DNA from: an uncultured Alphaproteobacteria bacterium
GTDB lineage: Bacteria > Pseudomonadota > Alphaproteobacteria > Rs-D84 > CACZYB01
Assembly (NCBI GenBank): GCA_944390685.1
Contig: CALXQL010000003.1
Span: forward strand, 1-57,498
Direction: 5' to 3'
Length of the DNA: 57,498 bases
Positions 55,710-57,498 of this stretch are shown here, in pieces; position 1 is the first letter of the stretch; every line of letters begins with the position of its first letter. The translations under genes were made by a program, and so were the position numbers. The notes under the pieces are model-generated. The model ran no database searches and was not told the DNA's origin. It worked only from the letters and a program-made list of their open reading frames with translations.

Positions 55710-56630
55710 ATGACTATTTATGTTATGGGACATAAAAATCCAGATACCGATACGGTTATGGCAAGTATTGCTTGTAGTGAACTTTTAAGACTTCGTGGGT
55801 TAGATGCAAAACCTGTTGTTCAAGGCGAAATCAATCCCGAATCCAAATTCGTTCTTGAAAAATTCAATATTGATATTCCAGAAATAATAAATTCTGTGGA
55901 AGGAAAAAATATTGCAATTGTTGATACAACGAATCCTGCTCATCTTCCTCATGACATTGATAAAGCAAATATTTTATTCATTGCTGATCATCATAATTTA
56001 GGTGGACTTAAAACTGCATCTCCATTGGAAATTTATGCTCAACCAGTTGGATCAAGTTGCACTATACTTTATAACATATTTAAAAATGAAAATCGTGAAA
56101 TTCCTAAAAATGTTGCAGGTATTATGATGTGTGCAATTATGTCCGATACTATTTTATTTAAATCTCCTACGACAACAGAATTTGATAAAATGGCTGTTGA
56201 AAACCTTGCAAAAATTACAGGGATAAATAAAACCTTGGAATTAGGTTTGGAAATGTTGAAAGTTAAATCATCAATTGAAAATGAAACTCCAATTGATTTA
56301 ATTAATAGAGATTTAAAAGTCTTTGATATAAAAGATAAAAAATTTGCAATTGGGCAAATTGAATTAATTGATGCTTCCATGGCTGAAAGTAAGAAACCTG
56401 AAATACTTAAAGAAATGGAAAAATTGAAAAATGAAAATTCTTATCATAGTGTGATTTTACTTATCACAGACATCATGAAAGAAGGTTCTGAAATGCTTAT
56501 AGTTGCAGATGATGTAAGTGAAATTGAAAATGTTTTCAATGTTAAATGTGATGAAAATCATTGTGTGTGGGTTGATGGGTTAATGAGTAGAAAAAAACAA
56601 GTTGTCCCACCTTTGGAAACAAAAATTTAA
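55710..56630 (+). CDS. ppaC: Manganese-dependent inorganic pyrophosphatase (family II)
   Basis: The 306-residue DHH-family enzyme hydrolyses pyrophosphate to phosphate. GHKNPDTD (about 6-13) and ADHHNLGG hold the metal ligands, with DTTNP and DTILFKSPTTT between them. The DHHA2 domain (about 190-306) ends with WVDGLMSRKKQVVPPL. Family II enzymes are common in Firmicutes and less so in Proteobacteria, so this may be an acquired gene. I chose ATG 55710 because AAAGGA lies upstream; the longer frame from 55695 would cover that site. Confidence 0.95.
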   Translation: MTIYVMGHKNPDTDTVMASIACSELLRLRGLDAKPVVQGEINPESKFVLEKFNIDIPEIINSVEGKNIAIVDTTNPAHLPHDIDKANILFIADHHNLGGLKTASPLEIYAQPVGSSCTILYNIFKNENREIPKNVAGIMMCAIMSDTILFKSPTTTEFDKMAVENLAKITGINKTLELGLEMLKVKSSIENETPIDLINRDLKVFDIKDKKFAIGQIELIDASMAESKKPEILKEMEKLKNENSYHSVILLITDIMKEGSEMLIVADDVSEIENVFNVKCDENHCVWVDGLMSRKKQVVPPLETKI

Positions 56631-56644
56631 TAATCGATTTTTTT

Positions 56645-56672
56645 AAGAGGGCTTTTTTATAAGCCCTTTTTT
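56645..56672 (+). terminator. Intrinsic terminator after the pyrophosphatase gene
   Basis: AGGGCTT (56648-56654) and AAGCCCT (56661-56667) form a seven-base stem with a six-base loop, followed by a T-run. Confidence 0.9.
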
Positions 56673-56742
56673 CTTAAAAACTCCTTGATAAATATCAAAA
56701 AAGATTATATCATATTTTTAGATTTAAGTTTTCTTAAATTTA

Positions 56743-56950
56743 GCGTTCATAGGTGAATGCGGACTTTCGTAGGTCTTTTATACAAGCGTAAGTGCGATTT
56801 GGCACTTCTTATTCTGGCGTATCCCCGCGTTGGGGAGCTCTTGACGTATGTCCAGAGAATTTCACCATTGGTGAAAATTCTTAAAGGTCATGAGAATCAT
56901 CCGCTTGTATATGATTTACGAACTCCCCGTCATTTATGAAGGCATAAATG
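56743..56950 (+). ncRNA. Candidate structured RNA (multi-branched, unassigned family)
   Basis: The 356-base gap between the pyrophosphatase gene and the next gene holds a segment richer in G and C than its surroundings, with nested helices. Long-range pairs are TATACAAGCG (56779-56788) with CGCTTGTATA (56902-56911), and TTCGTA (56766-56771) with TACGAA (56917-56922). Inside are three hairpins: AAGTGC/GCACTT (56790-56807), a stem with TCCCC/GGGGA (56814-56855), and TTTCACC/GGTGAAA (56860-56876). Two outer hairpins are GCGTTCA/TGAATGC (56743-56760) and CATTTATG/CATAAATG (56931-56950). I cannot match it to RNase P, tmRNA, SRP or a riboswitch; 6S RNA is a weak alternative. A 60-codon frame across it looks like a shadow. 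Confidence 0.55.
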
Positions 56951-56986
56951 AACAAAAGAGGTTTGTCCTTTGATTAAGGGGGTATA

Positions 56987-57379
56987 ATGAAAAATAAATT
57001 TATCTTATCTATTTTTGTTATGAGTTTGTTTCCTCATAATGGGAAAAGTGCAACCACAACTCAACTCCAATCAGTGCTGCAAAAATATGGGGTGCCTATG
57101 ATTAGCGATTGCGGAACAAAAAATGAGGCTCACTATAATGGCTCGGCTCCAGAATGTCAAGAATGGGGTATGTATTACGATAAGCCAAACAGAAGGTGTG
57201 ATGTATGTCCCATTGGAACTGCCACTGATTCAAAAACTGATACTGCCTGTAAAACTATTGTCTGTCCTAATGGTAATGTTGGAACAATCATAAATGATGG
57301 TAAATGTCCCGCAGGTTATATTTTGCAACAAATAACTGGGGGAAGTTGTCCAGTGGGAAGTGTATTAACAAAAATGTAA
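56987..57379 (+). CDS. Small cysteine-rich secreted protein
   Basis: The 130-residue protein has a signal peptide (about 1-21). The mature part has at least eight cysteines in patterns like those of the left-end proteins (CDVCPIGTATD, CPNGNVGT, CPAGYIL, CPVGSVL). This is the CPxG spacing of ephrin-receptor-like repeats, but without a glycine-rich domain. It should be disulfide-bonded outside the cell. The start ATG 56987 follows AAGGGGG. It stands just after the structured RNA and just before the second hairpin repeat. Confidence 0.7.
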   Translation: MKNKFILSIFVMSLFPHNGKSATTTQLQSVLQKYGVPMISDCGTKNEAHYNGSAPECQEWGMYYDKPNRRCDVCPIGTATDSKTDTACKTIVCPNGNVGTIINDGKCPAGYILQQITGGSCPVGSVLTKM

Positions 57380-57386
57380 AGTTTAT

Positions 57387-57427
57387 GGGAGGAAGTTTTT
57401 CTTTGTTCGTTGTCTTCGCTTCCTCCC
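57387..57427 (+). repeat. Intergenic hairpin repeat, copy 2
   Basis: GGGAGGAAG (57387-57395) and CTTCCTCCC (57419-57427) are perfect complements around a 23-base loop. The loop is nearly identical to that of copy 1 at 137-177; 57401-57425 is identical to 151-175. It lies between the cysteine-rich gene and the next gene, the same context as copy 1. Confidence 0.65.
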
Positions 57428-57467
57428 TCCCTATTATATAACAAGAAAAAAGAAAGGAGAAATAAAA

Positions 57468-57498
57468 ATGAAGATAAATAAGAGATTAGTTATGTTGG
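57468..57498 (+). CDS. Start of another gene (probably secreted protein), partial
   Basis: ATG 57468 follows AAAGGAG and opens MKINKRLVML before the window ends. The N-terminus and the leader resemble those of the gene at 212 (MKLNKKLGFI), so this is probably another member of the cysteine-rich secreted family. Nothing downstream is visible. Confidence 0.55.
   Translation, partial: MKINKRLVML

Follow-up and report, generated by a model that had tools for sequence, protein, structure and literature searches.

The C4 RNA of phages P1 and P7 (RF01695) uses two antisense words. It is a cis-encoded antisense RNA that controls the antirepressor gene ant (PMC8201110), and the CI RNA of phage P4 ends transcription by pairing with seqA and seqC, which lie up- and downstream of it (PMC4825925). 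Another RNA of interest here is sRNA-Xcc1 (RF02221), which is widespread and has an unsettled role; a 2025 paper places it 5' of symE and proposes that its mechanism is divergent (PMC12444791). We analysed a stretch of 57,498 nucleotides (nt) from an uncultured alphaproteobacterium, called here the window, in which a spacer of 0.35 kb at the end precedes a gene for a Cys-rich protein of secreted type (56987-57379). The spacer very likely encodes a structured cis leader RNA, which is very likely a divergent relative of sRNA-Xcc1. We consider it moderately probable that this RNA is a self-targeting antisense leader switch similar to P4 CI and P1/P7 C4.

Structure and covariation of the leader RNA

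The segment 56743-56950, delimited as a structured RNA by an earlier note on this DNA, folds with an energy of -80.5 kcal/mol (z -6.5); 200 dinucleotide shuffles average -50.4 with a standard deviation of 4.6, and none of them folds as well. The reverse strand of 56735-56990 likewise folds well (z -5.9), so energy alone has no power to assign the strand of the RNA, which is assignable because the covarying helices tolerate G-U pairs, the element has a fixed position before a gene and its relatives carry 3' U-tracts. The folded RNA thus stands as delimited except for its start, which the covariance model R1 moves upstream to 56717; R1 was built from 14 copies including that of the window, whose score against it therefore holds by construction.

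The helices described in the earlier note are all present (Table 1). The long-range helix of 10 base pairs (bp) joins TATACAAGCG (56779-56788) to CGCTTGTATA (56902-56911), that of 6 bp joins TTCGTA to TACGAA, and the local hairpin AATCAT/ATGATT, which we call K, lies exactly where it had been placed. Long-range pairing was regarded there as the rival of this hairpin; we read it rather as an antisense word, b', in the loop of K that pairs with an upstream target, b1, while a second word, a', in the linker pairs with its own target, a1. When pseudoknots are disallowed, the b1:b' fold of the window copy (-92.1) is more stable than the fold combining K with the pairing of strands S2 and S3 (-80.7); as a pseudoknot the two may coexist.

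Among homologues the four core helices fit 87.8% of the alignment cells, 26 of the 28 core pairs have changes on both sides, and covariation in the core amounts to 0.434 against 0.203 in shuffled alignments (0/500). Strand S2 has two alternative partners, S1 on its upstream and S3 on its downstream side, and pairing with either exceeds that with permuted partners. Homologues and covariation thus support the view that a structured RNA with competing helices lies 5' of the gene for the Cys-rich secreted protein. A protein-coding reading of the region, as an open reading frame of 60 amino acids (56757-56939), was set aside, with no formal codon test, since the loop lengths vary freely while the base pairs are kept. 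Of 60 copies, 21 carry a -10-like box at a shared position. A terminator-like hairpin follows S3 in 11 of 85 copies of the window's group, and in the other group in 61 of 91; here and below the two groups are split by locus number, and some copies of the window's family that carry public contig identifiers are counted as others.

Antisense words and their targets

Pairing was tested in the 121 of 176 copies that could be parsed; the permutations keep no phylogeny, so the z values overstate independence. Pairing of the word b' with its upstream region amounts to 7.93 in the window's group, against 4.76 after permutation (n 43), and to 7.18 against 4.69 in the other group (n 76). For a' the values are 5.79 against 4.35 and 5.87 against 5.18, respectively, and in all four cases none of 200 permutations reaches the observed value. 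Pairing of at least 7 bp is found in 97 of the 121 copies, as 89 distinct words. Within three genomes (G000, G003 and G005) own pairing averages 8.4-8.8 and cross-pairing 4.9, with cross pairs of at least 8 bp in 0/42, 1/56 and 0/72 combinations; a fourth genome (G006) gives 6.5 for own pairing, 4.3 for cross-pairing and 0/90. The words thus vary between copies and covary with their targets. Each copy's two words pair only with its own leader, and pairing between copies of one genome does not rise above background. Each gene therefore probably has its own private RNA switch.

Other pairings with the gene start were also considered. Pairing of S3 with the ribosome-binding site (RBS) was rejected as a copy-specific switch, as it is weak in copies from large genomes (4/500, for the 29 of 33 that have a gene) and absent in the window's clade. 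When segments of 14 nt were scanned against the gene start, the S3 stretch stood out (z 4.8 and 8.3), which we attribute to the stem of the hairpin that follows S3; in the other group z 2-3 was reached by a few further segments.

For a self-targeting antisense leader switch, we infer the direction of control, the on state and the cis or trans action of the core as follows. The two targets lie ahead of the compact core, a1 within the hairpin 2 loop and b1 just 3' of that hairpin, and the core carries b' in the K loop and a' in the linker. The core would be cut out or would accumulate, and would then pair in trans with a1-b1 of newly made leaders, or else fold onto them in cis. Such pairing would shift the choice between S1:S2 and S2:S3, which in turn would determine whether the gene is expressed or is shut off by termination or by a block of translation. 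As the words are private to each locus, the surface and secreted genes would be set independently of one another.

The same parts could be read as a ligand-sensing leader, i.e. a riboswitch in which the pocket is formed by the internal loop and the aptamer is closed by the b1:b' pseudoknot, while S1, S2 and S3 with a terminator or the RBS serve as the expression platform. The conserved internal loop GTATGTYCAGAG/CTTAAAG, the two alternatives for S2 that both exceed permuted partners, the terminator after S3 in the other group, the 55-nt spacing to the gene and the GGGG-enriched RBSs (see below) would all agree with it, and the genome encodes a GGDEF protein, so cyclic di-GMP is conceivable as a signal. 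On the other hand, the downstream genes have no common pathway, almost every copy has words of its own that no other copy in its genome shares, and the RF02221 loci described below repeat their words at the RBS, which a ligand aptamer does not need. We regard a riboswitch as unlikely.

Distribution, downstream genes and genome context

By BLAST, 7 of 59 genomes have copies, the window's own among them, and an 18-mer from the core retrieved 97 stretches in public genomes, mostly of gut Alphaproteobacteria. With R1 the window's genome (0.93 Mb) contains 13 copies at E<=0.0021 and 14 at E<=1. Copies occur in 10 of 11 genomes of the family, with up to 31 in one, and in 151 of 201 genomes of the order; seven genomes from four other families of the order, scored in full, yielded one match (G020). 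The RNA is not limited to this order, as had tentatively been supposed, since in a sample of 385 genomes of the class R1 matches 30, and R2, a model of the core built from 89 sequences including intermediate alphaproteobacterial copies, matches 26 of 398 genomes of the phylum; sequences used to build either model match it by construction. BLASTN searches of phage and plasmid collections gave no match, and five viral contigs containing the 18-mer were taken as chance, as none was matched by the model. One locus (L287) contains a tandem pair of copies about 30 bases apart. In three loci of the other group (L227, L234 and L250) tRNA genes lie about 80-220 bases 5' of the RNA and are perhaps integration sites, and in a phage-like neighbourhood a Type II hammerhead ribozyme (L310:2889-2953, 66.4 bits) is located about 1.3 kb from a copy.

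The distance from S3 to the gene start is rather constant (median 55 nt, interquartile range 51-65, in 140 of 172 copies), and GGGG is present at 56 of 137 RBSs of RNA-linked genes compared with 86 of 609 controls. The products of the 105 genes analysed 3' of the RNA include Ephrin_rec_like Cys repeats (11), BspA leucine-rich repeats (6), glycosyltransferases (5), helix-turn-helix proteins (5), outer-membrane barrels (4), Stealth (2) and LicD (1). The Cys-rich protein of the window comprises 130 amino acids; it matches Ephrin_rec_like below the cut-off, and its N-terminus appears, in our own reading of the sequence, signal-peptide-like. Between this gene and a second secreted gene lies another conserved hairpin (GGGAGGAAG...CTTCCTCCCTCCC, 57387-57431), and similar elements follow other RNA copies in the same and related genomes. 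In two loci of one genome (L171 and L178, G005) repeats such as GTCAGCACAATGGGAGTGAAACGACCGTGGGCGCCC separate the genes 3' of the RNA.

A contig ends within 1.7 kb downstream of 7 of the 13 copies of the window's genome, where 0.59 would be expected, and identical terminal stretches of 127 bases are shared by two pairs of contigs (C3/C8 and C20/C22; the window end at 57498 and the loci L154, L158 and L160 are concerned), as if different leader-gene units ran into one shared second gene. Such breaks, together with the high copy number, would be explained by a DNA-level element, either a recombination site or a mobile repeat whose palindromes act as DNA, and sRNA-Xcc1 is located in integron cassettes (PMC12444791). 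We nevertheless regard this as very improbable, for the G-U pairs and the terminators are strand-specific features of RNA, the copies have diverged, and the breaks fall in or beyond the coding region 3' of the RNA.

Table 1. Parts of the leader RNA and adjoining features, in coordinates of the window
Feature	Position	Strand	Basis
Whole RNA, match to model R1 (211 positions)	56717..56933	+	covariance model
5' hairpin, 10 bp	56719..56742	+	relatives have the same hairpin with different sequence
Hairpin 1 (GCGTTCA..TGAATGC)	56743..56760	+	covarying pairs
Hairpin 2, loop region with word a1 (56766-56771, TTCGTA)	56761..56776	+	fold, pairing test
Word b1 (strand U), complement of b' over 10 bp	56779..56788	+	pairing
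Hairpin AAGTGC/GCACTT followed by TCTTATT, weakly terminator-like	56790..56807	+	relaxed U-tract rule only
Strand S1 (CCCC), alternative partner of S2	56823..56826	+	pairing test
Strand S2 (GGGGAG)	56832..56837	+	core alignment
Core hairpin; internal loop GTATGTCCAGAG / CTTAAAG is conserved	56838..56894	+	core alignment
Hairpin K, stem 56895-56900/56911-56916, loop with antisense word b' (56902-56911)	56895..56916	+	covariation, pairing
Linker with antisense word a' (TACGAA)	56917..56922	+	pairing test
Strand S3 (CTCCCC), partner of S2	56923..56928	+	covariation
3' hairpin CATTTATG/CATAAATG, U-tract absent in the window copy	56931..56950	+	sequence
Ribosome-binding site AAGGGGG	56976..56982	+	sequence; GGGG enriched at such genes
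Presumed regulated gene, 130-aa Cys-rich protein	56987..57379	+	21-sequence family 3' of the RNA in related loci

Relation to sRNA-Xcc1 and to phage antisense RNAs

Rfam searches, of the window at the gathering score and permissively of 56600-57050 (E<=10) and of 15 loci, yielded nothing credible except tRNAs, and no family was named for the spacer. By the Rfam threshold the window RNA is not a member of RF02221. The description of the RNA as new stands to this extent; it does not stand in full, because intermediate homologues, searched permissively, match RF02221 below the cut-off, exactly in the core and in the same register. The best alphaproteobacterial relatives score 30.8-39.7 bits (in the window's order and at L305/L306); matches in the window's order include L240 (37.6 bits), L257, L236, L250 and one in genome G014 (39.7 bits). 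RF02221 itself is found above the cut-off in 39 of 398 genomes, with matches at E<=0.01 in 61. In the opposite direction R2 recovers 7 of 32 RF02221 places (best E 8e-8); since R2 includes intermediate copies, the link between RF02221 and the window goes by steps.

The words recur in the RF02221 loci, which were taken mainly from the better-scoring matches. There a' and b' match not only an upstream a1-b1 but also a second pair, a2-b2, at the RBS of the next gene: in 32 loci (L370 was left out) the pairing was 5.00 vs 4.05 and 5.72 vs 4.52 (0/200), and in 38 of 40 further loci (two had short flanks) 5.53 vs 4.25 and 6.26 vs 4.45 (0/500), the upstream matches giving the same 0/200 and 0/500. 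The second set is the better guard against lack of independence, though some of its genomes are common to the first. Of the 32 loci, 20 have a U-tracted hairpin that separates b1 from the core, compared with 1 in shuffles. The ten next genes that were scanned encode the SymE toxin (3), Bro-N (4, one below the cut-off), KilA-N, P22_AR_N and Rha. RF01695 gave no match in the window or in 20 loci holding RF02221 copies.

sRNA-Xcc1 has also been described as a discrete small RNA that acts in trans on other mRNAs, in which case the adjoining gene would be incidental; it was reportedly called trans-acting in the title of a report by Chen (2011), and this counts for such a reading. Its detection as an 88-nt RNA by Northern blotting and rapid amplification of cDNA ends (PMC2996969) points the same way. 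The fixed distance to the next gene start, the many copies with a terminator directly before the adjacent gene, and the words complementary to the leader, which in RF02221 loci also match the adjacent RBS, argue against it, and we find it improbable for the window RNA.

Several results weigh against the proposed antisense switch in the window. RF02221 has no match in 56600-57050 even at E<=10 (gathering cut-off 53 bits), nor did it match any copy in the window's genome at E<=0.01. In the window's clade a2-b2 is absent from the RBS (4.79 vs 4.90 for b', 4.53 vs 4.53 for a'), and what is best supported in the RF02221 loci is therefore not transferable; there the K loop pairs with nothing within 1.5 kb downstream, and pairing of S3 with the RBS is not copy-specific (86/500 and 250/500). 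Finally, S3 is not followed by an intrinsic terminator in the window copy, and the one that follows b1 there is weak.

Tentatively, and with less than even confidence, we propose that sRNA-Xcc1 and the alphaproteobacterial branch belong to a single superfamily of antisense RNAs that are encoded in cis and target themselves, found across Pseudomonadota on mobile genes and multiplied in small gut Alphaproteobacteria to sets of ten to thirty switches with private addresses, which turn surface and secreted proteins on or off singly. If this is true, surface diversity would arise without DNA rearrangement, and sRNA-Xcc1 would gain a testable mechanism with its own leader and the RBS of the adjacent gene as targets; the words at the RBS in RF02221 loci would then be the divergent mechanism suggested in PMC12444791. 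The branch, invisible to Rfam, has many copies in reduced genomes with orthogonal addresses, which would be natural material for orthogonal RNA switches.

The Rfam model of sRNA-Xcc1 covers only the 87-nt core. In this core sRNA-Xcc1 and the window's branch have, in the same register, the outer helix, a hairpin with an internal loop, a second hairpin, the linker and the outer strand; they share an internal loop of the AUACAA/AUGUCCA type and UAAA in the first hairpin, and their upstream a1-b1 lies at a similar distance (median 74 vs 70 nt). The window's clade differs from sRNA-Xcc1 loci in its downstream genes and in the absence of a2-b2 as the RBS target. Like the RF02221 loci, P4 CI is an antisense RNA between upstream and downstream complementary sequences of one leader, and C4 of P1/P7, a cis antisense RNA acting on an antirepressor gene, resembles them, as they precede Bro-N, KilA-N, P22_AR_N and Rha genes. 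Compared with P4 CI, to which we found no relation in sequence or Rfam family, the window RNA has two words, the downstream target is missing in its clade and termination is putative. One feature of the P4 CI and P1 C4 type, an antisense word that pairs upstream in the RNA's own leader, is present in the window, with 10 bp in b1:b' and 6 bp in a1:a'.
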